Assembly: GCA_948144175.1 (NCBI GenBank)
Contig: CANXME010002586.1
Location: 1-64,000, forward strand
Reading direction: 5' to 3'
DNA from: Closterium sp. NIES-65
Lineage: Eukaryota > Streptophyta > Zygnematophyceae > Desmidiales > Closteriaceae
DNA: 64,000 nt
The notes below the pieces were generated by a model. That model saw only the letters and a program-made list of their open reading frames with translations, did not search any database and had not been told where the DNA came from. Positions within the stretch are counted from its first letter, which is position 1. The number at the start of each line of letters is the position of its first letter. Made by a program: the position numbers and the translations under genes. Of this stretch, positions 8,955 through 64,000 are shown piece by piece.

Positions 8955-11900
8955 ATGGACTTTCTGCGCTCGTCGTTGCGTCTTGCACGCCAAGCACGAG
9001 CTGCGCGAAAGCGCTTCGTCGTTCCCGCATCCGTGGCGGACGATTTCGCAGTATCATCGCCGAGACTGATAACCGCCGCGACTGATTTCGCAGTATCGGC
9101 GACATTGACGAATGCGGTTACCAGTCCCGCGGAAGTTGCTTCTCAAAGCACCCGCCACGCGGCAACTCACCGCGGGTCGAATCCGCATCAAGACTCGAAG
9201 CGGCGCGCATCGAGCAATGCGTCGCGGGAACAGCGGACGTCCGCGTTTGAGACGTCCCGAAGGAAGGTTTCGCTGTGGGGGAACGGGGATCACGGACGGC
9301 TGGGGCTGGGGAGCAAGCGGGGGAAGAGCGGAGAGTCGGAGAGCGGGGAGAATAAGAAAGGCGGAGGGGGGTGGGGGTGGGGGAAAGTCGGGAGCGAAAA
9401 TGGCGGAGCGGAAGCGGATAGGAATGAGGATGGGGGATCTGTGAACGTCCCACGAGTGTGTTCGGCATTGGAGGATAAGGACGTGTGCCAGGTGGCGTGC
9501 GGTGGTGCTCACACGCTCGTTCTGACAGGTACTGATGACGTGTCAGTTGCTGGTGCTGAATCAAGACGAGTTACTGCCGGCGTTCGGGTCAATGGCGTAT
9601 CTAGAAGGGTTGTAAGAATCGACTTGAATCTGAATATGTTCATGCGAATCTGCGTGCGAATCTGAATGCTCTTCCATGCACATGCATGATGCATCCATCA
9701 GCTGATGGTAGGGTGCTCATCCCGGGTTACAACGACCGACCAACGATGCATACTCTTACCCCATAGGGTGCGTCTGTGCAGCGGAGCGGATGGCAGGGTG
9801 TAGAGCATAGATTTCAGCGGCGATTATTGCATAACCATACCCCGTGCGTTTTGTGCACATGCATGATGCATGATGCATCCCCCCAGCGGATGGCAGGGTG
9901 TACAGCACGGGTCTCAACGACCAAGGGCAGCTGGGGTTGGGAGACTCAACCGCTCCACCATACGTCACTGTGAGTGCTTGCTGCCCTTGATCTGTTATTG
10001 AACGCATTTTCTGCCCTTCCACCTCCCTCGCTTACTGTTCAGCAATTCCAGTCTTCTTACTAACACGGACAGACATGGTCTGTTCCGCCTGCCTTGCCTT
10101 TCAATCCGTTCTTGTACTAACATTGACACGGCCCACTCAACCTATCGCATGGATGCAATGTCTGCAATGTCTTTACCCAACATTTACTTTCACCCGGTCC
10201 TGTTTCCTTCCTGCTTGTTTCCTGCAGTCACCCAAAGAGGTGGTCGGCTTTGATCGGCCTGTAGTGGCCATTGCAGCTGCTGCCTTCCACTCAGCAGCAA
10301 TAGATGGTAACTCAATCCACATTCTGATCTGATCCACCAAGCATCTATGGATAATGACGAGTTTTAAAATTTAACTACGTTTTGAGAGGTCTGGTCCATT
10401 TTCGTTTTAATCTGCATCCGTATTTTATCATCTATCCTCTTCTCCTCCCCTGTCTGTTTGTACTTCTCCCGTATCCTCACGTCCTGTCCATCAGAGGCCG
10501 GCCAAATGTATTTGTGGGGCGGCAATGCCACCCGCCAGCTTGGACTCGGCTCACGTGAGTTGTCCCCTCTGAACAGCACTCTTTCTCTTACCTGTTCTCC
10601 CTCGCTCCACTCCACCCCTATTGTTCTTCTCCGGTATTCCACCCATCTGTCTTTAGATCAATTCTGATGCCTCCACTCCCCTGCTCCCCAGAAGGTCCTT
10701 CGAAAGTGCACTTGCCCCGCGTACCAGAGGCGATGGTAGGAGTGTGCATCCAGCACGTTTTACTTCATTCATCCCTGCAACTTCTACCCAACCCCTACAT
10801 GCTTGCTCCCCTTCTCCCCAGGCGCTCCATCCAAGGTGTATTCACCCCGTGTGCCTGGGGCGCTAGTAGGTAGGAGTGTGCATCCCACACATTCTCCTCT
10901 ACCCATTCCTCCCACCCCCTCTAAACCCCTCCCTCTCCCCCCTCTTGCTGCGTGCTTGGTCCCCAGGCGCCCCATCCAAGGTGCATTCGCCGCGTGTCCC
11001 TGAGGCGCTGGTGGGAGTGAGCATCCAACACATGGCCCTGGGGGGTCAACACACCCTCGCTGTCACTGGTAGGCTCGTATGTACCCATGCTGCCATGCTC
11101 CCCGTCCCCCATGCTGCCATGCTCTTATGCTCCCATGCCCCCATACTCCAAGTCTTCCATGCTCTCGTGCTCCCACCCTGCCACCCTCGCAGCCGATGGT
11201 CAGCTGCTCTCGTGGGGAAAGGGCCTGCTGGGTCACGGCCCGCTGCCGCTCTTCTCCCGCCTCTCCAGGAAATCCAGGTGCGCAGCAATTCTCAAGGCTG
11301 GGGATTCCTGTTATTTTCTGTGCAACTAGTCCTCTTCCACAGCATCCATGCATTCTGCGTTCTAGTGTGCAAGTTGTGTGCACACTAGAACGCAGAATGA
11401 AGACAACTCTCGTTTAGCTTTTCTTGTTGTCTCTGCTGGTTCATTCCAAGCTGGTACTCACCTCTCCTTTCTTATCGCTCCTTCCCCCCTCCCCTCACCC
11501 TTCAACCGTCCTACGCAGTGAGTCCATCCCGCGGCTCGTGAAGGCCATGGCAAGCACCAAGGTATGCAATCTGTGAACACGAATGCAGTACAGCGTTGCG
11601 GTATAATGCCGTAGGATGGCGGAAACAGAGGGTGGCTGGTTATGGTGGGCGAAATAAACCGACGTGATGGACAGTAGCTATTTATTAGATTTCCATTCTC
11701 CCCCGATGTTTGTGTGTGCTTTGATCAGCACTTCTCCCTCTCCTGCATGTGCTTGCCATATTCGTTATCTTGTTCCCTATTTTGGCCTACACTTGCGAAA
11801 TTTTTCAACTGGTAATCGTATTGCATGTGATCTTGCTGCATGTGCTCCTATTTCGTCACCAGGTCGCTCACGTGGCAGCAGGCCTGATGCACTCGGCATG

Positions 11901-13885
11901 TGTTGATGGTGAGCCAGCATGTGTTGATGGTGAGCCAGCATGTGTTGATGGTGAGCCAGCATGTGTTGATGGTGAGCCAGCATGTGTTTGATGGTGAGCC
12001 AGCATGTGTTGATGGTGAGCCAGCATGTGTTGATGGTGAGCCAGCATGTGTTGATGGTGAGCCAGCATGTGTTGATGGTGAGCCAGCATGTGTTGATGGT
12101 GAGCCAGCATGTGTTGATGGTGAGCCAGCATGTGTTGATGGTGAGCCAGCATGTGTTGATGGTGAGCGAGCATATATTTCTGGGGACGCAGCATGTGTTG
12201 ATGGTGAGCCAGCATGTGTTGATGGTGAGCCAGCATGTGTTGACAGGATGTATTGCATACATGTGCCTTACTGCGCCTCCCTTCAAGTGTGTACATTCAT
12301 GTCACTGATTGTTTACTTCCCTGTGGATTCATCCACGTGTGTGTCTGCTTGTGCCTTCTCTGTGCATTTCTGGCAGACAGCGGCCGCCTGTACATGTTTG
12401 GGGGAAACAGATTCTCTCAGCTGGTGAGTCTGTGCGAGTGGGAATGTGAAAGCAAGCTAGTTCGTGTGTGAGTACGTACGTGTTCACGTGTGAATGCAAG
12501 TGTGTGGGCACATTGCATTCACCTGCACGTGTGCCCAGGAGCGCATCATACACGCTGCATGCCCACATCTGTGCCCTGCTAGGATGGGCAGCGCAAGGAC
12601 TTGGAGGAGCCCTGTGCACCTAAATTCAACCAATCTACCTGAAAATATCCAAACAGTGGCACGTTATTTGCTGCTGAATGCATGCATTTATGATGGCATG
12701 TGTCCGTGCATGCATGTGCATGCATGATGTCATGCGTGCATGATGGCAGGGCCTGGGGGATGAGAAGGATCGGGAGGAACCGGTGGAGCTGAGATCTCTG
12801 CAGCATGCTGTAACGGATGTGGCGTGTGGTGGTTACCACACCGCTGCTGTCACAGGTGCTGACATGGTGCTTTGTTCATCTGATTTCCATCTCGCATTCT
12901 TTATGCTCCTTTCGAACTCTCGTTCCTGACCTTCTGTGTCATCGTTTTCCTTACATGTCTACAGGGGCTGGGCACCTATTCACATGGGGGGCAAACGAGT
13001 ATGGCTGCCTTGGACACGGGTGTGTGCCAGGTTATCCTACGCTCCCATCTGTGTGACTAGAGCTCGTTGTCTTTTCCTTAGGATCAAAATTGATTTTTTT
13101 GTCGCGCTGGTGTTGTGCATCTTTTGAGAGCCATCTCGCCTCACCTTTCCTCACCTCTCTGCACCCCTCTCTCCTGTCCTCTCAATTCCTCCCCTCGCGT
13201 CTCGCTTCAAGCAGCCCTCGCCATGCACCCTCGTCAGCAGTCCCAGTGAGGGTGGCAGGCAGGTTGGCAGGCAAGCAGGTGCTTCAGGTGTCATGTGGAT
13301 GGAAGCACACCGCAGCTCTTGCCAGTAAGTGCACTGCTCGGTCTCACAAGTCACAGTACAAAAACAAACATAGGCTGTTGCTCTTTGCAGTTGTTGTGCA
13401 TGAAGCTGGTATGTCTGAACCTTGCGGCATGGCATTAGTCTTCATTGTTTCTCTCTTGCGCCGTGACGTGGTGTTCAAATCAGGTGGTGCTGACGAGGGT
13501 GAAGGGCAATCATTGCGGGCGGCAACAGTTGGCAAGCTGTACACATGGGGTTGGGGCGGTTCCCAAGGATCGCATGCTGTGGAGTCAAGGTCTACAGGAG
13601 GCCAATTGGTATGCGGTGGTAGGGGAATATTGGGGATGGTGCAATTTGTTCTGCAGATGTGGCCTTGTGCTCCTGTGCTTGACTTAACCTTTTCCCTCAA
13701 TAATTTTCTGTCGTGGATTTTTTCAGGGGCTTGGAAATGAGTTTGAGTTCTTTGAACCCATGCGGGTGTCATACGGAGCGTTTGAAAAAAACCCTCAACA
13801 AGGCAATAGCGTCTCAAATGTCCTTCAAGTATCATGTGGTTTCAACCACACTGCTGCCATCATATCTCAAATTCCTTGTATCTAG
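8955..13885 (+). CDS. RUG1: RCC1-repeat (beta-propeller) protein, RUG1-like
   Basis: Fourteen exons: 8955-9528, 9887-9969, 10228-10306, 10495-10554, 10967-11068, 11193-11277, 11519-11561, 11863-11908, 12377-12423, 12750-12855, 12965-13019, 13215-13324, 13484-13608, 13727-13885. They join in phase to 557 residues ending in TAG. The start at 8955 opens an Arg-rich, acid-poor leader (MDFLRSSLRLARQARAARKR) that could target an organelle. From residue 105 come seven-bladed-propeller motifs: WGNGDHGRLGLG, ACGGAHTLVLT, STGLNDQGQLGLGD, LWGGNATRQLGLGS, VACGGYHTAAV, TWGANEYGCLG, VSCGWKHTAAL, TWGWGGSQGS and VSCGFNHTAAI. From memory, order and wording best match the Arabidopsis At5g08710 (RUG1) type rather than UVR8. 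RCC1 folds serve as exchange factors, photoreceptors or organellar splicing factors, so the biochemical role is open. Residues 118-160 are a Gly/Glu/Lys-rich insert. Exon 8 ends in a donor that was amplified into a minisatellite. Echoes of exons 2, 5 and 10 lie in introns. Confidence 0.88.
9699..9812 (+). repeat. Two partial echoes of RCC1 exon 2
   Basis: 9699-9740 (catgatgcatccatcagctgatggtagggtg...) and 9790-9812 (cagcggagcggatggcagggtg) resemble the acceptor and first bases of exon 2 (CCCCAGCGGATGGCAGGGTG at 9881). Both lie in intron 1; neither reads through. Confidence 0.6.
10685..10885 (+). repeat. Two 5' echoes of RCC1 exon 5 with their acceptors
   Basis: 10685-10765 and 10815-10885 each hold a CCCCAG acceptor followed by a copy of the first 45-65 bases of exon 5 (real exon at 10967). 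They would encode GPSKVHLPRVPEAMVGV- and APSKVYSPRVPGALVG-like peptides against APSKVHSPRVPEALVGV in the real exon. Neither continues to the ALGGQHTLAVT motif or ends in a donor. Confidence 0.8.
11897..12241 (+). repeat. 21-bp minisatellite made of the exon 8 end and its 5' splice site, about 16 copies
   Basis: Unit GCATGTGTTGATGGTGAGCCA. The first copy is the last 12 coding bases of RCC1 exon 8 plus the donor G|GTGAGC, so every unit repeats a full-strength donor at the same reading phase. Read through, each unit adds ACVDGEP. An extra T in the fifth copy (11981-11991) creates an in-frame TGA. A divergent unit (GAGCATATATTTCTGGGGACG) lies near 12168-12189. Confidence 0.95.
12580..12625 (+). 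repeat. Weak 5' echo of RCC1 exon 10
   Basis: GCTAGGATGGGCAGCGCAAGGACTTGGAGGAGCC resembles the acceptor and start of exon 10 (GGCAGGGCCTGGGGGATGAGAAGGATCGGGAGGAACC at 12745), but has lost the frame. Strongly decayed. Confidence 0.4.
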
Positions 13886-14928: not shown

Positions 14929-17900
14929 ATGGAGGCATATTTCTGGGTGGTGTTCGCGGTGCTGGTGGTGCTGTGCCTGGCGCTCGAGTTCTCCCGCGGA
15001 TCCAAGGACCGCGCGCAGACCACCCCCGCGTTCGAATCCTTTAAGAACAACTACCTGCTCGTGTACTGCCTCATGATGGGTACGTGCCGAATAATGAGTC
15101 AGCTTGTAATGGGGATGAGTTCTCTCAGGGCTCCAAGGATCGCGCTCGGACCACCCCCGCGTTCGAGTCCTTCAAAAACAACTACCTTCTCGTCTATTGC
15201 CTCATGATGGGTATGTGATGGATGCTGAGTCACTATGACTATGACATGATATGATGTAATGGTTACACAGCATATCTCAATGCTACACCATATGTTACAT
15301 ATCACCTGACCATTACTGCAGCATTCCGTTCCCTGACTCCTGCTCTCGCCCCGCGCCCTTCATATCGCTCATGCGCTTCCCACCCTACTCACCCCTCCTC
15401 ATGCCACGTGGCAGCGGGCGATTGGCTGCAGGGGCCGTACGTGTACGCGCTGTACCAGCACTACGGGTACGACAAGGGCGACATCGGCCGCCTCTTCATC
15501 GCTGGATTCGGGTCCTCCATGGTCTTTGGCACCATCGTGGGGTCGCTGGCAGACCGCCAGTGAGTGCAGTGCCTCTATTGTTTCTTATCTCTCCCTCCAG
15601 TGCATGATGCTCACAACATACTCACTCCACCACTTCATCGCTGGCTTGGCTCCTCCATGGTCTTTGGCACCATCGTGAGCTCTCTGGCTGACCGACAGTG
15701 AGTGCCGTCCTTACCTCTTCTAATCTCTACCCACGATCCTTGACGCTTACACTGTGCCCACAGTGGGCTCTCTTCATCACTGGATTTGGTTCCTCCGTGG
15801 TCTTCAGCACAGTCGTGTGGTCGCCGGCTGACAGGCAGTGAGCATTCCTAATACAATGATGACAGGCTGGGAGGCTTTCATTGCTGGCTTCAGCTCCTCC
15901 ATGGTCTTTGGGACCATCGTGGGGTCTCTGGCTGACAGACAGACAGTGAGTGTGCTTGCTGTCTCTTAGCTCGCCTCACAATCCGTAACGCTTAAAGCTT
16001 GCCCGGGGTGGATTCTCGTCATTGCCGGCTTCGGCTCCTCCATGGTCCCCTGCATGGTCCCCTGCATGGTCTACTGCGTGACATACATCCTCAGCTGCCA
16101 CGCCAAGCACTTTCCCTCTTTCCTCTCCCCTCCACTTTCCTCCCTAACCCTTATACCCTGAACCCCAATCCCCCCCCCCCAGTGGGCGTCGCCTGGCCTG
16201 CGTGCTCTACTGCATTACATACATCCTGAGCTGTCTCACCAAGCACTTCCCGGCCTTCTCCATCCTCGTGCTGGGTCGTGTGCTGGGCGGCATAGCCACC
16301 TCGCTGCTCTTCTCCGCCTTTGAGTCCTGGCTCGTCGCTGAGCACTTTGCTCGGGGTTTTGAGCCGCCCTGGTTGTCGATCACATTCTCCAAAGCCATCT
16401 TCCTGGGAAATGGCCTCGTGGCGATACTTTCAGGTGAGACGTGTGTGCTCGTAATGAGACTGTCTGGTATCATGTTTGAGACACTGCAAGGCACTTCCTT
16501 TCTGAAGCTTTGAGCCGCCCAGGCGCTCCATCATCCCAGCCATCCCCTTTTTCCCTATCCCCCACACACCACAGCTCCCTTCGCTCCACCCAGCCATTCC
16601 AACACACACACACGCCCCACACACACCTCCTACAAACCTCTTCCTTCCCAACCCCACCGCAGGCCTGGTGGCCAACGTGCTGGTAACAGACCTCAACCTC
16701 GGCCCAGTAGCGCCCTTTGATGCCGCATCAGTGCTGCTAGCGGGGGGAATGGCGGTGATAGTGGGCACGTGGAGTGAGAACTATGGGGACTCTGATCAGT
16801 CGCACGGGCTGCTGCTGCAGTTCCAACTCGCCTACCATGCCATCGCCTCAGGTACCACCAGACAAGTCTTTTTGCCATATTGCTGCCACTGATCTACACC
16901 CTCGTTGCTTTGGGAGGGAGTCTGGTGTGGGCGTACACTGCCGTAGCTTCAGGTAGAAAGAGGTCGCATGTTGGCAGTTACCACCATATCTTCTCATCCT
17001 CCTAGTCGCATGTCTGCATGATGAGAAGATTGATCGCTCTGTTAGAGGCCATCCAGGCCCGGTTCGCCCTCCTTCCTTTTCCTCTGCACGCCATTGCTCT
17101 GCCATCCCTGTCTGTTTCTCTTTCCCCCCACATCCCCCTCATCCAGATGAGAAGATTGCCATTCTAGGAGCCATCCAGTCGCTCTTCGAGGCCAGCATGT
17201 ACACGTTCGTGTTCCTCTGGACGCCAGCGCTCGCCCCTTCACAGCAGGCCATACCGCACGGCTTCATCTTCTCGCTCTTCATGCTCGCATCCATGCTCGG
17301 CTCCTCCCTGGCCTCCCGCCTCATGGGCCGTGCGGGGCTGAAGGTCGAGGTCTACATGCAGGCTGTCTTTGCCATCTCCTCGCTCTCGCTGCTCCTTCCG
17401 TGCATCGTCAATGTGAGCGTCTCCTAGGCCCACACCCACGTCCCCGTCTTGTCCCTCTCTCTGCTCCTGCCCTGCATCCTCGCACGTGATTCGTTCATGT
17501 CTGTGTGGGTGTGTTCTGGCCGTCCCTCATGCGTATGCACGCCCAGTAGCTCCCTCATGCCATCGTCTTTGTTAGATTATACTACTCTTCTGTATCCTGC
17601 ATTGATCCTATAAACCCTAGGATAGAGATAGGCACCCAAACAATGTTTGGGTGCACAACTAGGGTTAACCCTAGGTGGGGGTTGGAACCCAACCTTGGCC
17701 CAATTATTGGACCCCAAGGTTGGGTTGGAGGATTATTGGCCCCCCCAATAATGTTGGCCCACTTTGACCAACATTATTGGGACCCCCCAATAATTCTCCA
17801 ACCCAACTTATTGGTGGGGGCCAATAATGTTGGCTAGGTACCAACCACCCCCCTTTCCTTAGCTCCAACTATGTAAGCCCTCATCATTCCTAATCAACTC

Positions 17901-20900
17901 ATCGGTTCAATTCTCACAGTCTTCACATTCTCTCCCTCCATCTCCCCTTCCCGTTCCCGCCCAGTGGTTCTTGGAGCCCCACCCCCCTCCAGGGGGTGGC
18001 ATCACAGCAGGAGGCCGCGTGCAGCTAGCGGGGCTCTGTGTGTTTGAGGCATGTGTGGGCGTGTCCTGGCCGTCGCTCATGCCCTCTTATCCACACACTC
18101 CCTCTCACTCCGCCTCTCCACCTCCCATTCCCCAGTGGGTCCTGGAGCCCCACCCTCCACCAGGGGGCGGCATCACACCGGGAGGCCGCGTGCAGCTGGC
18201 GGGGTTCTGTGTGTTTGAGGCGTGTGTGGGCGTGTTCTGGCCGTCGCTCATGCGCATGCGAGCACAGTACCTGCCAGAGGAGTCCCGATCCACCATCATG
18301 AACTTCTTCCGCGTCCCCCTCAACGTCTTCGTCTGCCTTGTTCTCTACCACGTAAGTTCTCTCACCACCACCATGTGCTGTACCACGGGGTTCCGTCAAG
18401 GCCAATCAGGCCAGCCACCTCATTCATCCGAAGGTCTGCAGTCGGTGCATGCGAGCACAGTGTGTGCATGCGAGCACAGTGTGTGCATGCGAGCACAGTG
18501 TGTGCATGCGAGCACAGTGTGTGCATGCGAGCACAGTGTGTGCATGCGAGCACAGTGTGTGCATGCGAGCACAGTGTGTGCATGCGAGCACAGTGTGTGC
18601 ATGCGAGCACAGTGTGTGCATGCGAGCACAGTGTGTGCATGCGAGCACAGTGTGTGCATGCGAGCACAGTGTGTGCATGCGAGCACAGTGTGTGCATGCG
18701 AGCACAGTGTGTGCATGCGAGCACAGTGTGTGCATGCGAGCACAGTGTGTGCATGCGAGCACAGTGTGTGCATGCGAGCACAGTGTGTGCATGCGAGCAC
18801 AGTGTGTGCATGCGAGCACAGTGTGTGCATGCGAGCACAGTGTGTGCATGCGAGCACAGTGTGTGCATGCGAGCACAGTGTGTGCATGCGAGCACAGTGT
18901 GTGCATGCGAGCACAGTGTGTGCATGCGAGCACAGTGTGTGCATGCGAGCACAGTGTGTGCATGCGAGCACAGTGTGTGCATGCGAGCACAGTGTGTGCA
19001 TGCGAGCACAGTGTGTGCATGCGAGCACAGTGTGTGCATGCGAGCACAGTGTGTGCATGCGAGCACAGTGTGTGCATGCGAGCACAGTGTGTGCATGCGA
19101 GCACAGTGTGTGCATGCGAGCACAGTGTGTGCATGCGAGCACAGTGTGTGCATGCGAGCACAGTGTGTGCATGCGAGCACAGTGTGTGCATGCGAGCACA
19201 GTGTGTGCATGCGAGCACAGTGTGTGCATGCGAGCACAGTGTGTGCATGCGAGCACAGTGTGTGCATGCGAGCACAGTGTGTGCATGCGAGCACAGTGTG
19301 TGCATGCGAGCACAGTGTGTGCATGCGAGCACAGTGTGTGCATGCGAGCACAGTGCGTGCCTGAGGAGTCCCCTCCACCATCATGAACTTCTTCCGCGTC
19401 CCGCTCAACGTGTTCGTCTGCCTTGTGCTCTACCACGTGGGTCTTCCCTTGCTCTCTAACACAGTGATGGGGGTGAAGGCGATGATGGGGGTGATGGGGG
19501 TGATGGGGGTGATGGGGGTGATGGGGGTGATGGGGGTGATGGGGGTGATGGGGGTGATGGGGGTGATGGGGGTGATGGGGGTGATGGGGGTGATGGGGGT
19601 GATGGGGGTGATGGGGGTGATGGGGGTGATGGGGGTGACGGGGGTGATGGGGGTGATGGGGGTGATGGGTGTGATGGGGGTGAAGGGGGATCCGATGTGC
19701 ATCACCCACTTCCTTCCTCACTCACTTCCCCACCTCACAACCCTCCTCCTTCCCTGTTACACCCACCCATGTGTCTCATGAGCATTCTCCTTGTTACTCC
19801 CCTTCCACCGTGTCTCCTTGTTACTCCCCTTCCACCGTGTTTCCTGCACTCCCCTCAATGCCGCCCAACTCTATCTAAACCCCCGCCAGGTGCAAGCCTT
19901 CCCAATGACGGCCATGTTGCTCATGGGGCGCTGCCGTCAATACTCTCCTTCTGTCTCGTTTCCCATTGCAATCCCCCTCGTTTCCTTCACTTCCCTGCCA
20001 GGTGCGAGCCTTCCCAATGACGGCCATGTTCCTCATGTGCTCGCTCTTCCTCGCCATCGCTGCTCTCCTGCAGCGCCGCCTGCTCCACCTCGCTCTCAGC
20101 GCCCTGCCCCAGGGTGAGTGCACACCACTCATACCTTTCTGTCTGGTTCAGTTGCTCTCATCCATCCACGCATGCTCTCATCGCACAACAACGCATGCAC
20201 TCGTACGCACATGCACAGTCAGCCATGTCTTTCATCCTCCCTGCGTGCTAATCCTCCCTGCGTGCTAATCCTCCCTGCGTGCGAATCCTCCCTGCGTGCT
20301 AATCCTCCCTGCGTGCTAATCCTCCCTGCGTGCTAATCCTCCCTGCGTGCTAATCCTCCCTGCGTGCGAATCCTCCCTGCGTGCTAATCCTCCCTGCGTG
20401 CTAATCCTCCCTGCGTGCGAATCCTCCCTGCGTGCTAATCCTCCCTGCGTGCGAATCCTCCCTGCGTGCTAATCCTCCCTGCGTGCTAATCCTCCCTGCG
20501 TGCGAATCCTCCCTGCGTGCTAATCCTCCCTGCGTGCGAATCCTCCCTGCGTGCTAATCCTCCCTGCGTGCGAATCCTCCCTGCGTGCTAATCCTCCCTG
20601 CGTGCTAATCCTCCCTGCGTGCGAATCCTCCCTGCGTGCTAATCCTCCCTGCGTGCGAATCCTCCCTGCGTGCGAATCCTCCCTGCGTGCGAATCCTCCC
20701 TGCGTGCGAATCCTCCCTGCGTGCTAATCCTCCCTGCGTGCGAATCCTCCCTGCGTGCGAATCCTCCCTGCGTGCTAATCCTCCCTGCGTGCGAATCCTC
20801 CCTGCGTGCCAATCCTCCCTGCGTGCGAATCCTCCCTGCGTGCTAATCCTCCCTGCGTGCTAATCCTCCCTGCGTGCTAATCCTCCCTGCGTGCTAATCC

Positions 20901-22210: not shown

Positions 22211-23189
22211 TCACCACTGCGCTTTCCACCACCGCCCCGCCCCCTCCCCCCCCCTTCCCCCGCCGCCTCTTCCCCTTCCACCCCTTCCCCCGCCACCCCT
22301 TGCACCACTACCTCTTCCCCCAAAACCTCTCACCAAACCACCTCCCCCCACACCACCCCTTCTTCCGCCACCCCTCCCCCCACCACCACCCCTTCTGCCT
22401 CTCCCCCCTTCACGCCTCCCTTTCCCCTTGCGCTCATCTCCTGCCGGTCCCCTTGCCGCACCACCTGCCCCTTCCTCCACAGCTGCACTCATCTCAGCTC
22501 CAGCAGTTGCCTTTGAAGCTTTGCGCTTCTTCTGCTTCTTCTGCAACCCCTCTTCCCCTCCTGCTGTGTCTCCTGCATCCTCTGTTCCTCCTCCTCCTCC
22601 TCCTTCTCCTTCTTCCTCTCCTTCTTCCCGCCTTGCACCGGCTGCCGCCCGCTTCTTTCCCTTCATCTGCTCTCCAGGAAGCTTCTTCCCGCCGCCCGCT
22701 TTGGGCGGCGAAGTGTCACCGGTCCAATCATGGAGCGCCAGTACAGCAGATTCCGAGAGAACCGATTCGTGCAGATGCTTTAGATACAGCTCCCAGAACT
22801 CGACCCTGTGGGGAAGGAGGGGGGTGGAGAGGAGGAACGGGGGAGAGAGAGGGGGTGGGGGGAGGAAAGGGGGAGCCGGAGAGAACTGATTCGTGCAGAT
22901 GCGTCAGATACCACCCCCAGAACTCGACCCTGTATAGAGGGCGAGGGAAGGGAAAGGAAAGAGGGAAAAGTTAGACGAAGGGGTGAAGCAGAGAAGGGGT
23001 GAAGCAGAGAGGGAGGGGATCAGTAGCGCGAGGTGAGTTGTGAGTGGTGTGTCAAGACCAAAATCATGAGACGGATGTAGTAAAAGGTGCACAAGTCGGG
23101 ACCATTTACAGAGAAAGAAGAAGGGCAGGGGGAAGGAAAGGGCGGCTGGAGAATGGGGGGTATGGGGCTTGGGGCATGGGCAGGGGCAG

Positions 23190-23274
<85 letters not shown>

Positions 23275-45417: not shown

Positions 45418-45488
45418 AGGGTTTACCCCCTTCCTTTTAGACGTGAATCACTCTTAGCCTTAGGAACAGCAGCTGCTTTTCCCAGTTC

Positions 45489-45739: not shown

Positions 45740-46060
45740 TAAAGAGAAGAATTCTAAAACTTGAAATTGGTCCCAATTTACAGAGCACATACGCTCTGTG
45801 TTGACAATCTGCATCTTTTCCAAACATAGGGCAAGCTTCGTTGTCATTGCATCCATATCCACTGCCTGCAAACCTGCAAACCGCACTGCACACTCCCCAA
45901 CAGGACATCCTGTCCTGAATAAACCCCGGGAACAGTGCTTTAGGCCTTGGAATTGGACACGATCTTCCCAAGGGTCATGAGCTCCGTAAAGACAATGCGC
46001 ATCTTCTTGAGCAAGAGGCTTGGTGATCATCTCATCCATGCCCACTCCCTACACACATCT
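45740..46060 (-). repeat. Two tail echoes of ETR1 exon 6 beyond the stop codon
   Basis: Minus strand 45955-46050 reads GMDEMITKPLAQEDAHCLYG-like or, one base over, KMRIVFTELMTLGKIVSNSK-like sequence, close to the receptor end. Minus strand 45745-45880 is older (MDAMTTKLALCLEKMQIVNT). Decay increases with distance from the gene. Confidence 0.8.
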
Positions 46061-46091
46061 GAACCGCACTGCACACCCCTGCACCAGAATC

Positions 46092-53143
<7,052 letters not shown>

Positions 53144-54014: not shown

Positions 54015-56007
54015 ATGGCTAATCTGGGCGCTCGAAACGTCACGGCTCTTTTCTCGAGGGCTGCTGTTACACCATGTCGAGCTCTTGCGCCGCTTTGCGC
54101 CAGAAGTCGGATGCGATCTAGGCGACGTTCGCTCCCGTTTCGCGATTCGTCGTGGGGCAGAACTCTCAGATGGTAATCCCATTGTCACACAGTCGTCAGC
54201 GTGTTTTCCAAGTTTCAGTCTTTCAGTCGTTCCTTAATCGTCTTGCGATCCGTGCGATCTGCTTGGCTGTCGCAGAGCAGCACTTTGGCGAGCGATGTGG
54301 CAGAGCGAGACGGTGCGAGCGACGACGGCGCAAGCAAGCAGGTCGCAGAATCGCGGTCTTTGGACCTGCAAGGGATTGGGATGAGATTCGGCAACCGAGT
54401 AATTCTGGATGACGTGTCACTCCACGTTAACCCGCAAGAAATCGTAACTACCTCTTTTCCTGCCGTTCCGTCCCTTGGGGTTTCCTTCCGCCCCTCTTAT
54501 CCCCCTCACACATGTTACCTCGTGAGGGTTCCACGTTAACATATGCTTCTGCTACCGTTATCCCCTCTTGCCGCGAATCCTCTCCAATCGCTCCTCTCTT
54601 CCCATCACAGCCATCACCATCCCAACCACCCCCCTCTCTCGTCCCCCGCCGCTACAGGTGGGTCTGCTGGGGCCCAACGGCGCGGGCAAGAGCACCACCT
54701 TCAGCGTCGCCGTCCCATTTGTCACCCATCCCAAATGGCACCATTACCATGCCAACAACCCCCCTCCCCTCTCCTATTTATTTCCCCTACAGGTGGGTCT
54801 GCTGGGTCCCAACGGCGCGGGCAAGAGCACCACCTTCAGCATCGCGGTCGGCCGCGAGACCCCGACAGCTGGCGCCGTGCGATTGGGCGGCGCTGACGTC
54901 ACGGGGCTGCCGCTCGAGCGGCGGGCGCGGATGGGCGTGGCGTTTCTGGCTCAGGAGGCGAGCATCTTTCGGGGGCTCAGCGTGGCGGATAACATACGGC
55001 TCGTGCTGGAGGAGGGACCCCTACCATATCACCTGCATGACGCCCGGATAGAGGTGCGCATGTGCTTTTGAGTTGACCCAGCAGTCAGCTTGTTCCTGGC
55101 GCAGCAGGCGAGCATCTTCCACGGGCTCAGCGTGGCCGATAACATTCGGCTTGTTCTCGAGGAAGGGCCGCTGCCCCACCACCTCCATGACGCCCAGATT
55201 GAGGTGCGCACGTGCTTGCATGCATGGATTTGTGGATGCATGCTCATGCTGTGCCCATGGCGTGGCCATGCCATGCCATGCCCACTGTGGCCTGTGGCAT
55301 GTTCTCTGCATTCACTCTCCCCCCCGCTGCCCTCATCTCACCTCTCGTCCCTCAATCCCTCTCAACTTCTCCCCACCCTCCCCTCGCCCTCGCAGGAGCT
55401 GCTACGCAAGTTTGACCTGGTCCACGTGGCACACACTATGGGCCGCCACCTGTCCGGTGGAGAGAGGCGAAGAGCGGTACGTGCATCCGAATGTCATGTT
55501 GCATGTGCATGTATTCGTGCACCCGCATGCACGCTTACATGTGTCTTGGTTTGCCCATGCTGAAAGAGACACTGACAGGCCTGCACTCATGTGGCGCAGC
55601 AGCTCTGCACACCACGCCATGCTGCTCCCCATCCTCTCCCTCCCCATTCCCTATCCTCCCCTCCCCCAACCTGCACTGGCCAACAGGAGGTTGCTCGAGC
55701 CCTGGCAGTAAAGGACAGCGAATGCAACCCGCCGCGGTTACTAATGGTGGACGAGCCGTTCGCAGGCGTGGACCCCATAGGCGTGCAGCTGATGCAGAGC
55801 ATGCTGTGTGCGCTGAGGGAGCAGGACGCCATGGCCATTCTCATCACGGATCACAACGTGGCGGAGACACTGGGGGTGTGTGACCGCGCATATGTGATGC
55901 ATGAAGGGAGGGTGGTGGCGTGTGGCACGCCCGAGCAAGTGTTGGAGGACCCACTGGTGCAGAGGTTCTATCTGGGGTCGGCATTTGCTCGACAGGCAGT
56001 ATTGTGA
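54015..56007 (+). CDS. LptB-like ABC transporter ATPase with transit-peptide-like leader
   Basis: Exons 54015-54172, 54227-54443, 54793-55053, 55396-55476, 55687-56007; 345 residues. Residues 1-75 are Arg/Ser/Ala-rich with no acids at the start ([20 protein letters not shown]), typical of an organelle transit peptide. The ATPase body follows LptB closely: [20 protein letters not shown], Walker [14 protein letters not shown]-loop [20 protein letters not shown], signature LSGGERRRA, Walker [18 protein letters not shown]-switch [20 protein letters not shown], and the C-terminal [21 protein letters not shown]. LptB powers lipopolysaccharide export in Gram-negative bacteria. Here introns and leader argue for a nuclear gene whose product works in an organelle, probably the plastid; substrate unknown. 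It could belong to another plastid half-ABC group. Exons 3 and 5 have echoes. Confidence 0.85.
54655..54725 (+). repeat. 5' echo of ABC exon 3 (Walker A)
   Basis: GCTACAG|GTGGGTCTGCTGGGG encodes [20 protein letters not shown] against [20 protein letters not shown] in the true exon (54793). It breaks off after TCCCATTT|GTCACC. Confidence 0.92.
55078..55203 (+). repeat. 3' echo of ABC exon 3
   Basis: Repeats the second half of exon 3: [20 protein letters not shown] then [17 protein letters not shown] with donor GAG|GTGCGC. Against the exon I count about 14 synonymous and 4 replacement codon differences over 38 codons. A half palindrome (55065-55077) lies at the junction. Confidence 0.92.
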
Positions 56008-56147
56008 TGTCAGATATGTGTGAACGTGCGTATGTGATGCATGAAGGCAGGGTGGTGGCGTGTGGCACGCCGGAGGAGGTGTTGGAGGACCCACTGGTGC
56101 AGAGGTTTTATCTGGGACTGGCATTTAGGCGGCAGGCAGCACTGTGA
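56008..56147 (+). repeat. Tail echo of ABC exon 5 directly after the stop codon
   Basis: Repeats the last 44 codons with its own stop: [20 protein letters not shown] then [20 protein letters not shown], in a different frame from the gene end. Nine or so of its differences from the parent are synonymous. Confidence 0.92.
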
Positions 56148-56383: not shown

Positions 56384-59300
56384 TCAGAAAGCACCCCACC
56401 CGCGCTGAGAAAAGTGTCCCCCTGCGCCTGCCATGGGTGTGTTGTCTGCAGACGATGCATCCTCCTCCCCCACATGCTCATCAAATCGCGACGCCGACAC
56501 ACCGCTGCCCCGCCCACTTCCATATGCAGAATCAAACCCCGCTGCAGAATCAAATCCTGCAGCGCCGCCCGAAGCCACCTCACCGTAATCGTCTGGGCGG
56601 CCAAACCCCAGCCCTGACTGCTCAGAAGCTGAGTCTTCTGGATGCGCATGCGAGTCAAACTCACTGGAGGCTCGGAAGTTGGAGTCATACTGGCTGGGGG
56701 CTCGGAAGCCCGAGCCTGTGGCATCGAAATGATGGTCGAATCCCGAGGCAAAGTCCTGGGCGGCGAAGGCTGAGGGCTGGAAATCCATGGACTGTGATTG
56801 GTGAATGGAGAGGAATGGGATGGGATGCAGGAGACAAGAAGGGCAAGCGAAAAAAAAAAAAAAAAAACTTCGGGAACGGTACCCAGTGTATTTATAACTC
56901 GGAACAGAGGAGGAGGCATAGAAAGGGGTTGAGAGGGACAGGTGAGAGGAGAGGGGTGAAGCAGTGGCAGTGGTAAGGGCAGGGAAGAGAGGAGGGGGGT
57001 AAAGCAGTGGCAGCAGCATGATGGGAGGAGGAGCGCTGACCTGGGAGACAGAGGGCGAGTCCACCCCTGAGGCTGTGAAGCCAAACCGGTTGTCCCACGC
57101 CGATGGGCTGAGAGCACCGAGGGGTAAGAGCAGGTGACGGCACAGGACATGGGGAGGAGGGTAAGCGAGACCGATGGGATTGATGGGAATGTTGGGCACA
57201 GAACGAAAGGGAGGATACGATTCAGATACGAGGATGTCAGCGGCCTGAAATGAAGGCAACGACTGATGTTTTCCAGAATACTGCAGAGAGGCATAGGGAT
57301 AAACTTTTTTATAAATTACAAGTGAAAAAGACTCACCCTTGAGGCGTCTCAGGCTCCTCCTCCTCAACATGCCCCCCCTCCTCCTCCTCCTCGCCCATCC
57401 CCCCCCGCCCCCTCCCACTACCTCTAGACCACCCACCCAGCTGCCCAACCCCCCCACCCTCCTCCCTTCCTTCCTCCTCCTCTTCCTCCTCTCCCTCCCC
57501 TTCTTCCCCATCCTCCCGCGCCCTCCTCTCCTCCTCCTCCTCCAATAGGGCCCAAGCCGACACAGCACCGCCAGCAGCACCACCAGCGGCGGCATCAGAA
57601 CCAAGGGTAGCAGCAGGAGCGGCAGCAGCACCCGGGGCAAGGGATGGGGCGGAGGGGGTGACGGGGCCGAGAGGGATGAGAGGCGCCGGCTCGTCATCGT
57701 CTCCCCCTAACAGGTCGTCTGTGCGCGATCGCACCACTGAGAAGCCTGTGAAGGGGGGGGTGGGGGCAGCAGCAGGGGCAAAGGGCAGGGGGCAGGGGGC
57801 AGGGGACGGGGTGGAGGGGTCGATGGGGCTGAGGGGGATGAGGGGCGCCAGCTCATCATCTTCTCCCCCCAGCAGGTCGTCTGTGCGCGATCGCACCACT
57901 GAGAAGCCTGTGAAGGGGGACGGGGAGATGTAGGGTTGGAGAGGGAAGACAGGCAGGTGTTGGTACGTCCAGGCGAGGCGAGCACCAGAAGCGGGTGCAG
58001 GGGAGGCAGAATGGAGAGGGGGTGAGAGAGATGGGGGCAGTGGATTTAGGGTAAATGAGCACGCAGTGCAGAAGAGAGAGGGGGCAGGTAGGCATATGAC
58101 AAACGCACCACCTTCTGGTCCACCACCATTTTACTCGGTGCTCTGACCTCATAGTGGTGCAGAAACCTGCAACACCCCCTCGCACACCTCCACCCATGCT
58201 CACCTTGGTCCATGAACTCGTCCCAGTCATCATCACACCTCACCCCACCTCACTTCACCGCTCATCACCCGGCATGGCCTCACCTTGGTCCATGAACTCG
58301 TCCCAGTCATCATCACAGTCCGCCATGTTCTCCTGTAGGGCCACTCGCCACGCTGCATGCATGCATACGACCATAGCAGCATGCATGCATGCACATGCAT
58401 TCATGCATACAAGTATAGCAGCGTGTGCAGAGCAGCATGCATGCATCCGTGCACATGCAGTGAATGCATGGAGGGCAGAACAAGAATCATGCCAAGCAGA
58501 ACATGCATGCAGAGGTCGATAGATGAGTTGAACGACGGCTCAACAAGCGCTGTCAATATGGACGAACCAGAAAGGAAAAAAAGAGAGCAAGAACCACAAT
58601 TCAGCAAGTGTGCGTGTCAGCACGAGCAACCCACCATCAGGCCCAGAGGCAGCGCCGAGCAGCGGGCGCACTTTGAGCCCCAGGTCCTTGGCCTGCCTGT
58701 TCATGGCCCTCCGTGCGTCCTCCAGGTCCATGCCCAGCTTGTCCGCGCGGCCCTGGCATGAGGCAGGAGGGGAGTCAGGAGGCTCAGGAGGGTCAGGGAG
58801 GAGATGAGCGATGAGAGGAGTGGAGCGGAGAGGTGCCGGCTGCAGCGCGCAAGGATGCACATGCAGCAAGAATTGCAGGACCCAGCTGGCAGTGAGCAAT
58901 GCACGCACCTGCAGCAGGTCGGAGGCGTCAGCAGTGGTGGTGGCATGGAATCGCGACACCACCTCCATCAGCGCCGCCTTGCGCTCCTGGTGAGGTGGGA
59001 TGGCAGCACGTGGGGTGGCACGTGAGGAGGCGGTGGGTTGACACAAGGAGTGGCACGTGCGAAGATTTCTTGGCATGGAGGCACATGGCATGGTGGAGAA
59101 GAGATATGGATGATGAGAGGCACCAACCCAAGCAGCAGCAGGCAGAAGCAACATCGAGCCACCCACCTGCAATTCCTTGAGCACGCTGTCCTCGTAGGCC
59201 AATCGCGACTTGACACCTGGCATGGACGCCTTGAAGCGCTCGTCGTAGCGCTTGCAGAGCATGTCGTACTGCCATGCCCATGCCATGCCACACCGCACCG

Positions 59301-62300
59301 CACCACGCCACACCACATCACACCACGGGTGCATTGGAGGTGATGGAGAGGGTTAGGGGAATCAAGACAAAGGACACATGTTGATAGGAAGGCTTGAGCT
59401 GAGGCGTCACACGTTAAAGCAATGTCAACACTGAAACCATTAGAGGTGTCTCATTGTTCGATCAAAGCATTCGCAATGCGTTTGCGTGGCACTCACATGT
59501 CTCTTCTCCGCTGCGACTTGCTCCGTGACATCGTTCAAGCGGTTGTCACAGCGGCTCTTGAACATGATCTGCCCCGCACAGGGTAGCGCGCGACACACGC
59601 ATGCACAAACGCAGGGGGGGAATTGGACAGGCACACAGGAGCAGGGATTAAATAAAATGGACGGCTAGAGATGAGACATGTGTGCATGCAACCTGACAAG
59701 AAGACTGGTGACTGCCATTCTAGGACATGCAGAGCAATGGGATTGATGAAAGGACGAGCTGCATTGCATCTTATGAAGCGAGAGCAAATGGCATAATATG
59801 GTCGAATGGAATGGAGTGGCATGGAATGGCTAGAGCGGGCTGACGATCTCCTGCATCTTGACACGGTAGAAGTCAATCTTGCGCCTGTAGTCCGCTATCT
59901 GTAGCTCCGTCTCCCACACCTGCCCGTGCCAGCATGCGCACACCAGAAGGGGGGGGGGGAGGACATTCATGCACACACGGGGGCAGTCAAACAGACACGG
60001 GGACAGTCATGCACACAATCAACAGTGTTGGAAGAGTGAGCAAGAGAGTGTGAACGAGAGAGTGAGCAAGAGGGAGTGAGCGCGAGGGAGGCAGTGGGGC
60101 GGGGAGAAGAGGGTTGGACGGGCTGAGGGGCTGAGGCAGCAGCAACCAGCAAGCAAAGGAGTTCACAGAACCTCACAACACCAAGTTAATGTGTTCCTCC
60201 CCGTCAACCCCGCCCCATCCCCCTCACTCCCCCCTGCTTACCTTCTTCCCAATAAGGACATCTTACTGACCTTCTTCCCAATCTCCTCCGCCTCCTTGTG
60301 CTTGCTCTCAAGCTTCTCCCTTTCCTCCGCGTCCAGCTGAGCCACCTTCTCCGCCTCCAGGTCGGGCGCCTGGGAGCGGTACACGGGCCGGGATGCATCC
60401 ACGTCTCCTGCTTCTGCTGGCACTGGCATCTGCCCCACGCCCGTCAGCTGATGTGGGTGTGCGTGGGATTGTGGGGTGGGGTTATGCAGGTGGGGTGCAG
60501 TGGGTATGGAGTGCATTGTGAAGAGTTCTGTTCTCGCTTTCCTCTGGCACCGGCATCTGCCCCACGCCGTCAGCTGATGGGTGTGCGTGGGGTTGCGTGG
60601 TGGGCCACGGGCATGGGTTAGGTTGCTTGGGAGATGAAACATTTTAGGTTCTGATATCACAAGCTAAGGTTAAAACAAACAAACAAAAAGATATCCAGAT
60701 TTAGGAGAGAGGGAAATGAAGCAGATCAGGATGCACAGAGGGGGTGGGAAGGGGCGAGGGATGGGAGGGAGGACGCGAGGGAGGGAAGGAGGGTGGGATG
60801 GGACCGTTATGGAGGAGAAGAAGAAAGCGAAAGGCATGATATGGGCATAAGAAAAGGATTGGAAGGGGATTATTGACGCACCACTACTGTTGGTCGCTGT
60901 TGCTGCTGCTGCTGCTGCTCGGGTGTGCCACTCACTGCAGGCACGATACGGGAGGTGGTTGAAAGGATGATTCGCAGGGGGAACCGCGGATGAGGCAAGC
61001 AATGCACAAGAGCGCACCCAAAACCTACAGTGATCCAAACAGTGTCAAGGCACTACTACGACTAGCTGTCCTATGCTGATCCAAAATAGCATACACTCGT
61101 ATGGAGCATTGCACGAACATGTTCAGGCCTACAAGCACACGCGCACAGCAAGGCCTCACAGTATTCCATGCATGCCCCTTGCCCCCCCCCCCCCCCCCCC
61201 CAACGCACCTGGCTGGTGTCTCCAAGCAGTAACTGCTGGTGCACCAGCCCCACCTGCTGCACCAGCCCCACCTGCTGCACCCCCTCCTCCCTCCCCTCCC
61301 GGCCCAGCAGCAGCAGCAGCAGCAGTAGGGCCGGCTGCGCTGGCTGACACAGCGGCTGAAGCTGCAGCAGGCGCAGAAGAAGCAGCAGCGGGGGGTGGCA
61401 CCTGCTCGTCCAAGTGAATGCCCTGGGGCAGGGTGGGCGGCAGCTGTCGGCCCGCCTTCACATGGTTGATGAGGTACAGAGCGGTGCAGAGCTCTCGCAG
61501 GGTGAGCATGCCGTCCTTGTCCTGGTCTGCCATGTCCCACACCCGCTTCAGCACGTCTGGGAGGCGGGTGGGAAGAGGGAGGAGGAGAGGGGAGCGGAAC
61601 GGCAGAGTGATGGAGTCAGATGCCAAAGGGGAAGAGGTGACAGGGAGACAAGGGAAACAACGAGGAGTGGAGACAAGATAAGGAGCAAAATGGGAGGGGC
61701 GGAGGCAGTGGGTGGCAGAGGTAAGGGGGTAGTGGGGTGGGAAAGAGCCGGCCGGGAGGAGAGCTCACCGATAGGGACCTTGTAGCTCATCAGCAGCTTC
61801 CTCGCCTGCTCTCCTGTGATCTTCCCATCTCTATCCGTGTCCACCGCACTGAACACCTGTGCACAGCGCTGCACCTCTGCGACTGTGAGTCGGGGCCATG
61901 GCTGAGGGTCACCTGGAACCATCACATAACCCCCTCCTGTTGCCCCCCCTGCTGCTGCTGCTGCTCCCCCTGCTGTTGCTGCTGCCATCCCAGCAGCGAC
62001 AACAGCACCAGGAGCAGCAGCCGCAGGCACGATGGCTTGGCTTGGAACGAACTGCCCTGTTCCTGCCGCTCCTCCTACTGCAGCTGGGGCTGGGGCTGTG
62101 CCTGGGGGTTGCTTGGGCACCATGGCGTTAGAAACACCTCCTATAAGGAAAGCATTCAGGGACGCCTTTGCAATGTCGTCCGCTGTCCGTTTCACCTTTC
62201 CTCCTGCTCCCTCTGCCGTTACTGCTGCTCCTGGTGCGCCTGTGCTCACTCCACCTGCTCCTTTCTTGTCTGCATTCTGGACTGCTGCTGCTGCCTGCAT

Positions 62301-62557
62301 ACCAGGATCTGCAGCTCCTGAACTTGCTGCTGTGGGTTCAGAAGCAGCAGGCGCGGCAGGAGCAGCAGCCGGAGCAGGGGCGGGAGGAGGCTGCGCAATA
62401 GAGGACATGCTTTGGTCGGCAGCAGAGAGGCCGGCAGTGGTAGGTGCAGAAGGGGCAGCAGGGGCGGACGCGGCGGCAGCAGGTGCAGGTCCTTGGGATG
62501 GCATCCCCTCCCCTGCCGACTGCTGCTGTGGTGGTGGGAACGCCTGTTGTTGCTGTA

Positions 62558-62588
<31 letters not shown>

Positions 62589-63359
62589 CGACTGCTGTTG
62601 TTGTTGCTGCTGCAACTGCTGCTGCTGTTGCTGCAACTGATCCTGTTGCTGCTTAGCAGCCATCTGCTGCTGCAGCTGAATGGTCCCCATCTGCGCTTGC
62701 TGCTGCTGCTGCTGCAACGACTCCGGTACCTCCCGCCTCACAGGCGCACTAGTAGGCTGCACGGACTTGGACTTAACATCAAACGAACCAAACTCAGCGA
62801 AAACGTCTGACAGAGCGCCAGGCTGCTTCGGCTTCAATCCCGCTGCTGCTGCTGCGGCTGTCAATCCTCCCGAGCCTAGTCCTGCGCTGGAGGAGCCTAC
62901 GCTGAGGCCAGAAGGGAAGGAGGAGAGAGGCTGTGGGGCAGAAACGGCGCCTGGTCCCATCCCGGGACGAGTGGGAGTAGGCGACGGGCGTCGGGGTAGC
63001 TGGGGTGCTGCTGCTGCTCCTGCAGCAGATGGTGCAGCAACAGCAGGAGCAGCGGCAGCAACAGGTGCTGCAGCAGCGGCAACACCAGACGGAGCAGGAA
63101 CAGGGCCTCGAGCAGCAGGGAGGGCAGAAGCACCACCCGCAGGAGCAGCAGTGGCGGGGGATGGAGCAGTGGCAGGAGAAGGAGCTCCCGCGATGCGAGG
63201 AGGAGGGATCTGCGAGGCGGCAGGGCCGTTGAGCGCGGCGCGCACGAGGTCGGGGGTGAGGTCGCGGCCCGACTGCGCTACAGTGACAAGGCGCAGCGCG
63301 TTGAAGAACTCGGGGCGCGTGAGCGAGCCAGCCTGACGCACGTCCGAGTACTGCCACAC
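56384..63359 (-). CDS. EH1: EH/Pan1 (EPS15-like) protein of the TPLATE endocytic complex (5' end missing)
   Basis: Thirteen visible exons on the minus strand: 61769-63359, 61209-61556, 60882-60934, 60271-60447, 59845-59919, 59497-59568, 59167-59268, 58909-58986, 58635-58752, 58284-58352, 57337-57745, 57041-57107, 56384-56791; 1188 residues. The first exon starts inside EH domain 1 (VWQYSDVRQAGSLTRPEFFN, NGPAASQIPPPRI), so at least one exon lies past the right edge. A long Ala/Pro/Gln-rich linker with poly-Gln (62540-62720) leads to EH domain 2 with two EF-hand loops (DTDRDGKITGEQ, DQDKDGMLTLRE). Next come coiled-coil exons with KSRCDNRLNDVTEQVAAEKR, matching plant AtEH/Pan1, then DDDWDEFMDQ, an acidic tail and a Phe/Asp-rich end (FASGFDHHFDA). 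EH domains bind NPF motifs; TPLATE drives clathrin endocytosis at the plasma membrane. Echoes accompany at least four exons. Confidence 0.9.
57766..57915 (-). repeat. 5' echo of EH/Pan1 exon 11
   Basis: Minus strand TTCACAG|GCTTCTCAGTGG encodes FSVVRSRTDDLLGGEDDELA then PLIPLSP in frame, against FSVVRSRTDDLLGGDDDEPA PLIPLGP in the true exon (57337-57745). It then becomes Pro-rich and ends without donor. Confidence 0.92.
58195..58242 (-). repeat. 3' echo of EH/Pan1 exon 10
   Basis: Minus strand repeats TGTGATGATGACTGGGACGA to CCAAG|GTGAG (DDDWDEFMDQ plus donor) downstream of the true exon (58284-58352). Confidence 0.88.
58370..58460. repeat. GCATGCAT-rich simple repeat
   Basis: Several copies of GCATGCATGCA and CATGCATAC just upstream of the exon 10 acceptor; alternating purine-pyrimidine sequence. 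Confidence 0.8.
60545..60590 (-). repeat. 5' echo of EH/Pan1 exon 4
   Basis: Minus strand CAG|CTGACGGCGTGGGGCAGATGCCGGTGCCAGAGGAAAGCGAG repeats the exon 4 start (CTGACGGGCGTGGGGCAGATGCCAGTGCCAGCAGAAGC) with one base lost. Confidence 0.82.
62540..62720 (-). repeat. Poly-glutamine-coding CAG/CAA tract
   Basis: In-frame run of CAG and CAA codons within EH/Pan1 exon 1 of the visible set, encoding long Gln stretches broken by Leu and Ser. Confidence 0.95.
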
Positions 63360-64000
63360 CTGCAGGGATTGTGAGACAGACAGGGGGGTAGTGAGTGGCA
63401 AGGGTGGTGAGCCATGTTCAGATTCGGGTGAGGGAGCTCGCCTGACGCACGTCCAAGTACTGCACCTGTAGAGGGGCGGTTGCGGTTACAAACAAGGGGT
63501 TGCGTTAAGAGTGGTAGATTGCAGACAGGGAGTGGTGGTGAGGGTGGCAGATGACAGACCAGGGGGTAGTGTTAAGGGAGGTAGGGTGGAGAATGGACTC
63601 TGAGTCACGTTCAGATTCGGGTGAACGCGCCAGCCTGACGCAAACCCGAGTATTGTCACAGTTGCATAGGCGCGACGGTACGGATAGACGAGAGAGTACG
63701 ATGGCAGCGGGAACGGGTGTCGTGGTGAATGACAAGACGTGAGAAGTGGTGGATGGCGGATGAAGGAGTGGGGTAGAGACAGGGATGCATGACAAAGAAT
63801 GGCTGATATGAGCCCTCGAGAAGGACCGTTTGCATGCTCGCACGCTATCGCAAGCGACGCGACGCTGTCGCACACGATACGAGACTACCGCACACGAAAG
63901 AGATGTTATTTGGACGAATGGGAACAGGACGAGGGCACCGCCAGAGGTTGTGCCACGGTGATGCCGTTTTTTCAGAGTTAATGCCGTAAAGTATTCGCTG
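63360..64000 (-). other. Intron of EH/Pan1 with two exon echoes, reaching the window edge
   Basis: Upstream of the first visible exon. Minus-strand echoes near 63440-63475 (CTACAG|GTGCAGTACTTGGACGTGCGTCAGG) and 63625-63660 (CAATACTCGGGTTTGCGTCAGGCTGGC) resemble the exon start (GTGTGGCAGTACTCGGACGTGCGTCAGGCTGGC). No exon for the N-terminal half of EH domain 1 is visible, so it lies beyond 64000. Confidence 0.65.

Follow-up and report, generated by a model that had tools for sequence, protein, structure and literature searches.

Partial exon copies in the introns of neighbouring Closterium genes differ from their exons mainly at silent sites

How does a gene come to hold, in its own introns, partial copies of its exons that still end in a splice site? 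The 64,000-nucleotide stretch of Closterium sp. NIES-65 analysed here (the window; contig C2288:1-64000 of an assembly of 874,075,685 bases) raises this question in gene after gene. We detected 37 partial copies in six genes (RCC1, MFS, CMS1, EFR3, ETR1 and LptB), each homologous to an exon of its own gene but outside the coding sequence (CDS), in an intron or the 3' flank, with the exon itself intact and the splice dinucleotide or stop codon mostly kept. Exon and copy diverge mainly by synonymous (S) differences, with the G+C content of third codon positions (GC3) unchanged, and the copies bear stops, gaps and changes at conserved residues, while their present variation is richer in nonsynonymous (N) differences than that of the CDS. 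We suggest, with a probability of roughly 0.45, that the copies are relics of recombination between long-separated, functional versions of the same gene. The analysis covers one window of one species as DNA only, with Closterium sister strains represented by their deposited proteins.

The exon-end test compared the exons of seven genes (RCC1, MFS, CMS1, EFR3, ETR1, LptB and EH) with the adjoining intron or a 1.2-kb flank, accepting a copy when its score exceeded that of every one of 60 dinucleotide shuffles, with z>6. A significant partial copy was found beside 34 of 124 testable exon ends (2 further ends were too short), those at RCC1 exon 8, EFR3 exons 4 and 5 and MFS exon 5 being weak or minisatellite-adjacent. 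A stricter whole-exon search yielded the 37 copies, in agreement with an earlier reading made from the letters of the window alone (the sequence-only reading), which had counted more than thirty. PAE has one copy at a lower threshold (score 53, with 28 the maximum of 200 plain shuffles), and no exon copy was detected in the modelled LBD gene, as that reading had said. Copies thus occur in 8 of the 9 genes examined (EH with a rough model and two ends), where eight of ten spliced genes had been claimed; the high density reported earlier is upheld.

Of the 37 copies, 32 reach an exon end or stop no more than 4 nt from it: 16 do so at a donor, 14 at an acceptor and 2 at a stop codon (ETR1 and LptB). 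The remaining 5 end more than 4 nt from any exon end, two of them 5 nt short. The earlier statement that every copy spans an exon–intron junction therefore holds for 30 copies and fails for the stop-codon copies and these five. Splice dinucleotides are kept in 29 of the 30 junction copies: in all 14 acceptors, and in 15 of 16 donors (14 GT and 1 GC, with CT in the remaining one). The two stop-codon copies each keep the stop. Donor copies lie 3' of the parent exon and acceptor copies 5' of it, a geometry that we attribute by reasoning to the order that an intact mRNA requires. Similarity in many copies stops 5-15 nt beyond the splice site. The kept splice site, this order and the partly serial arrangement (e.g. 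at MFS exon 2, CMS1 exon 2 and ETR1 exon 3) had all been described before and were recovered here. The copies, including that of PAE, are as follows, with N and S differences from the exon where given.

10822-10892, plus strand: RCC1 exon 5 acceptor copy
15117..15210, plus strand: MFS exon 1 donor copy (N2 S11)
15627..15936, plus strand: three serial copies of the MFS exon 2 3' end (15627, 15770, 15877; the last two 5 nt short)
16061..16115, plus strand: copy of the MFS exon 3 5' part, beginning 14 nt into the exon
17502..17554, plus strand: MFS exon 6 internal copy, with an in-frame stop
17965..18082, plus strand: MFS exon 6 acceptor copy
19337..19436, plus strand: MFS exon 6 donor copy, past a 19-bp minisatellite
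19890..19925, plus strand: MFS exon 7 acceptor copy
26582..26627, minus strand: CMS1 exon 2 acceptor copy
25132..25852, minus strand: four serial CMS1 exon 2 donor copies (25751, 25486, 25272, 25132), 25272 without GT
23610..23687, minus strand: CMS1 exon 3 acceptor copy (N3 S12)
23320..23360, minus strand: copy of the CMS1 exon 3 3' part, 8 nt short of the donor
22879..22929, minus strand: CMS1 exon 4 acceptor copy
32496..32638, minus strand: EFR3 exon 6 acceptor copy (N1 S9); a Naga37s-1 gene model includes this repeat as an exon
32002..32058, minus strand: EFR3 exon 6 donor copy
30900..31125, minus strand: two EFR3 exon 9 acceptor copies
28765..28843, minus strand: EFR3 exon 13 acceptor copy (N3 S12, in-frame stop)
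39638-39675, minus strand: PAE exon 3 acceptor copy
52418..52486, minus strand: ETR1 exon 1 donor copy (N3 S1)
50279..50528, minus strand: two near-identical ETR1 exon 3 donor copies
47990..48540, minus strand: three more ETR1 exon 3 donor copies (48465, 48275, 47990)
47308..47414, minus strand: ETR1 exon 4 donor copy
47800..47856, minus strand: ETR1 exon 4 acceptor copy
46424..46653, minus strand: two ETR1 exon 6 acceptor copies (46424: N1 S5; 46575: N1 S11)
45940..46042, minus strand: copy of the ETR1 3' CDS end and stop codon, in the 3' flank
54658..54714, plus strand: LptB exon 2 acceptor copy
55092..55203, plus strand: LptB exon 2 donor copy (N4 S17), one tract haplotype-variable
56017..56147, plus strand: copy of the LptB CDS end and stop codon, in the 3' flank

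The region is present twice more in the assembly. Contig C1910 is 99.6% identical over window positions 10-46266, where it ends, and as a near-identical sequence may not be independent; contig C2031 aligns in blocks of 91-100%, mostly 97-99%, and was taken as the second, diverged haplotype. All 37 copies align in C2031, each across >90% of its length, with ambiguous placement among the ETR1 repeats, and C1910 matches letter for letter all 24 copies that fall within its span. The alignment in C2031 contradicts an assembly artefact.

The divergence between exon and copy was tabulated for the 37 copies of the six genes, leaving out PAE, LBD and EH. We counted 112 N and 242 S differences, against a neutral N/S expectation of 2.61, and codon positions 1, 2 and 3 differ 68, 48 and 241 times. 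Fourfold sites have diverged by 31% (174/562) and positions 1+2 by 6%; the resulting ratio of 0.19 for exon and copy is close to the 0.20 obtained when the haplotypes are compared over their CDS, where counts are small (16/7056 and 24/2112). Runs of codons changed only at the third position, with the protein unaltered, occur at CMS1 25486-25608 and LptB 55092-55203. By the ratio above, exon–copy divergence carries the signature of functional alleles. Across terciles of S per codon (0.12, 0.22, 0.40), N per codon is flat (0.13, 0.13, 0.10; Spearman -0.16, P 0.36). In the 7 copies with a significant flank, the intron has diverged by 20% (80/399). Divergence there is 31% at S sites but 4.5% at N sites, with 19 differences over ~425 sites where at least ~42 would be expected of a neutral copy.

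Other sources of the silent-site excess were considered and rejected. Mutational decay of G+C is at odds with a GC3 of 0.80 in exons and 0.78 in copies and with a third-position excess over first and second positions that persists both inside and outside CpG. Synonymous evolution of the exon alone would leave the copies with shared differences, yet the ETR1 exon-3 copies have few in common, though all multi-copy groups together share N6:S58. Gene conversion between exon and copy should, by reasoning only, erase S no more slowly than N.

Several features suggest that the copies do not work as exons. A stop or an alignment gap is present in 13 of the 37, the remainder being open over short lengths, and the 5 stops per 112 N changes (4.5%) are close to the neutral expectation of 3.7%. 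Orthologues (2 to 8 per gene, some weak) were available for comparison at 96 amino-acid changes, of which 60 fall at residues invariant among them and 13 agree with one of the orthologues. At the inner edge, AG precedes 2 of 18 donor or stop copies and GT follows none of 14 acceptor copies, although more distant sites are possible, as in the deposited Closterium model P0121, where the EFR3 exon-6 repeat extends to a donor some way past the copy. Single-nucleotide differences between the haplotypes number N20:S11 in copies and N19:S40 in CDS (P 0.004), a count that omits three variant-rich copies (CMS1 25272, ETR1 50424, LptB 55092); with these included the copies have N34:S29 (P 0.018). Haplotype variation is also higher in copies than in introns (61/2824 vs 87/14951, partly clustered; 47/2418 vs 84/14656 with the ambiguous ETR1 repeats dropped). 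Intron substitutions between the haplotypes amount to 0.58%, about half of the CDS fourfold rate (24/2112, 1.1%). Continuing constraint on the copies is disfavoured by these stops, conserved-residue changes, missing inner splice sites and N-rich variants; if left by recombination, the copies have probably been decaying as intron sequence since. The LptB donor copy 55092-55203 has an S-rich tract in the window haplotype but is closer to the exon there in C2031, a difference suggestive of recent gene conversion.

The silent-site excess and the non-functional features together argue that most of the divergence predates the side-by-side arrangement, and the data fit a two-phase history, with a long phase in which both sequences were coding in separate versions and then a shorter intronic phase for the copy. 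Exon and copy would each have a functional past of its own, for instance in distinct lineages of the Closterium peracerosum–strigosum–littorale (C. psl) complex. Between such versions exons would still align and introns mostly would not, and strand exchange would lose homology at exon edges; the ends of the exchange may then have been sealed after a step back, giving an overlap that is mostly ~110-185 nt long. A slip in the forward direction would remove coding sequence and not persist, while splicing would pass over a backward relic, the intact exon keeping its own site. NIES-65 itself would, we infer, have undergone inter-lineage exchange.

A number of observations weigh against an origin by such exchange. 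A search of the assembly with the 1055-nt ETR1 exon returned only the window, C2031 (100%) and three 62-nt matches at 81%, so that no diverged ETR1 version was found in the assembly as searched, and the ETR1 exon-3 copies differ so much from one another that several source versions would be required. The EFR3 exon-9 copies carry NIES-65/NIES-54 residues where NIES-68 differs (by eye), which names no source. Differences private to one copy of a multi-copy group are N24:S32, less extreme than the shared ones, and pairs at randomly chosen loci show no clear three-base mismatch rhythm, though no gene models exist there. Exon-to-copy conversion may be acting as well, as at LptB. The third of copies with the lowest S (N34 S30, N/S 1.1) fits plain duplication with neutral decay, and because it is compatible with tandem duplication a mixture of origins is likely.

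Small tandem duplications may instead arise genome-wide and decay neutrally, those at exon ends surviving, with one intact end left, and staying visible. We consider this unlikely as the general origin, although it has the right geometry, includes the stop-codon cases and is favoured by the low-S copies and by minisatellites similar to exon ends. The spacing of duplicates also speaks for it. The 65 non-minisatellite pairs comprise 39 with one member in CDS, 16 in contact with another copy, 2 stand-alone intron-only pairs and 8 intergenic ones, and 27 of the 39 CDS-involving pairs (30 distinct exon ends and one exon-internal copy) have offsets within 105-190 nt. In five loci chosen regardless of genes (47.5 kb), 7 of 9 direct-duplicate pairs have 136-185-nt offsets, and the spacing is therefore not limited to this window. 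The copied intron flank remains significantly similar in some copies, as duplication predicts, but in only 7 of 32; most intron-only duplicates of comparable age would therefore escape detection. The preference for exon edges is thus partly due to visibility, which accounts for much of the bias; the 30 exon ends stand against the 2 stand-alone intron-only pairs, a strong excess, with 42% CDS overlap expected under random placement, and the excess after a rough visibility correction has P = 0.012. The divergence itself speaks against this origin. Because a freely drifting copy gains N changes at the mutation rate, in-place decay should by this reasoning give a per-site N at least half of S, whereas ~0.16-0.19 was observed, and N is far under half of what the flank shows. 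On these grounds we disfavour neutral decay in place for the copies as a whole. The tandem duplication across junctions proposed in the sequence-only reading consequently survives as partial duplication at exon ends and, with neutral decay, for about a third of the copies, but fails for the mainly synonymous divergence. Its suggestion of an active duplication process found no support, as every copy is common to both haplotypes and no indel of at least 30 nt was seen within aligned haplotype blocks (differences between blocks, mostly minisatellites, were not counted).

The low N/S, the kept splice dinucleotides and stop codons, and the inclusion of copies as exons in some deposited Closterium models (P0001, P0004, P0121, P0161; by eye) would also be expected if the copies were translated, now or formerly, as alternative exon ends under purifying selection. 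This is improbable given inner edges without an adjacent splice site, stops at neutral frequency, altered conserved residues and N-rich present variants, and the models of the strains in PMC10407611 are, in the part of that paper considered, Augustus and PASA predictions with RNA-seq hints. Splicing-coupled DNA repair that copies exon ends with their splice sites, a mechanism raised in the sequence-only reading, would account for similarity ending shortly past the splice site, but the two stop-codon copies, the five copies away from exon ends and the 136-185-nt duplicates in gene-blind loci speak against it, and as it does not predict a synonymous bias we regard it as very improbable. The chance of an assembly artefact is practically negligible: the region is rich in minisatellites and has near-duplicate contigs, but all copies align in the diverged contig, and read errors would not, we reason, yield a synonymous bias.

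If relics of exchange are what the copies are, introns of this alga could be stratified archives: whenever a diverged gene version from another lineage recombined in, exchange would have halted at the limit of exon homology, leaving the exon end, either displaced or incoming, as a datable intronic fossil that retains its splice site. This extension is tentative and rather doubtful, but if true, past hybridisations would be readable exon by exon. If tandem duplication alone is at work, the density of copies still gives a strong natural system for intron growth. Either way gene models can mistake relics for exons and inflate proteins, as seen by eye in the four models named above.

The genes were modelled with a purpose-written protein-to-DNA aligner and mostly Closterium reference proteins. 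Reference residues covered are 1-779 of 779 for ETR1 (P0003), 1-1028 of 1028 for EFR3 (P0122), 1-801 of 801 for RCC1 and MFS together (P0159), 1-656 of 664 for CMS1 and 17-270 of a 270-residue hand draft for the LptB-like gene; the rough EH model rests on a Gb_ protein (P0124, residues 46-860 of 1060), the PAE model is partial and from our own draft, and LBD was modelled as well. The names LptB, CMS1, EFR3, PAE, LBD and EH are putative ones that follow the sequence-only reading, partly supported by precomputed Pfam labels.

9217..13608, plus strand: RCC1-repeat gene, 13 CDS exons (aligned part)
14929..20112, plus strand: MFS gene (molybdate-anion transporter, PF05631), 7 CDS exons (aligned part)
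22235..27603, minus strand: CMS1-like gene, 4 CDS exons (aligned part)
28114..34479, minus strand: EFR3 gene, 14 CDS exons
37958..40705, minus strand: PAE gene, partial model from own draft, 7 exons
46092..53143, minus strand: ETR1 ethylene-receptor gene, 6 CDS exons
54345..56007, plus strand: LptB-like ABC ATPase gene, 4 CDS exons, start codon not fixed in the model
56390..63362, minus strand: EH/Pan1-like gene, rough model, copies at two exon ends

By eye, the deposited Closterium models P0121, P0123, P0157 and P0159 merge window neighbours (LBD+EFR3+CMS1; RCC1+MFS). Within the 31-bp minisatellite unit of CMS1 intron 2 (23814-25151) the CMS1 exon-2 end recurs almost unchanged, with GC as its donor; the 19-bp unit of MFS intron 6 (18445-19360) is similar to exon 6 sequence. 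About 350 nt of MFS intron 5 (17570-17918) is absent from C2031, with GTCTT repeated at both sides and an inverted repeat at 17703-17828, and looks like a small transposon insertion with a target-site duplication. A near-perfect palindrome, TTTTGAGTCGACTCAAAA, lies at 25715-25732, 48096-48113 and 48164-48181 in two copy-rich introns (3 matches, 0.02 expected); as a cause of the copies it was rejected, three sites leaving the set unexplained. An open frame at 287-1426 on the minus strand, with a gag-like region and a CCHC zinc knuckle, is presumably a retrotransposon remnant.

Among known systems, mutually exclusive duplicated exons likewise place coding-like duplicated exon sequence inside an intron, but the Closterium copies differ from them in lacking a second splice site directly on the inner side and in their stops and gaps. 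Small tandem duplications from break repair are direct, nearby and small, as are the copies, but do not alone explain mainly synonymous divergence. Intron gain by tandem duplication splices the donor of the first copy to the acceptor of the second. In the potato RdRp gene (PMC4974935, as far as the part considered here goes), a short direct duplication of exon sequence and splice signals made a new intron; the Closterium copies share the short direct duplication, but each of the 30 junction copies repeats the donor or acceptor of an already modelled intron (splicing predicted), inside that intron. Hybrid genomes occur in the C. psl complex (PMC10407611), although the parts of that paper examined do not mention exon-edge relics or call NIES-65 a hybrid, and a non-exhaustive literature search found no published description of exon-end relics. 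The decaying (pseudogenic) exons of mammalian genes come close: in the portions considered of Morais and Harrison 2009 (PMC2718932), they affect 0.4-1.0% of genes and are duplicated exon sequences left in the gene milieu, many disabled, with Ka/Ks below 1 and a peak at 0.25-0.75; an original coding phase is among the reasons the authors give for this. Unlike these, the Closterium copies occur in nearly all of the neighbouring genes examined, are partial exons with one splice site, partly serial, and have an N/S relative to neutral of ~0.18, by a method different from that behind the mammalian peak.

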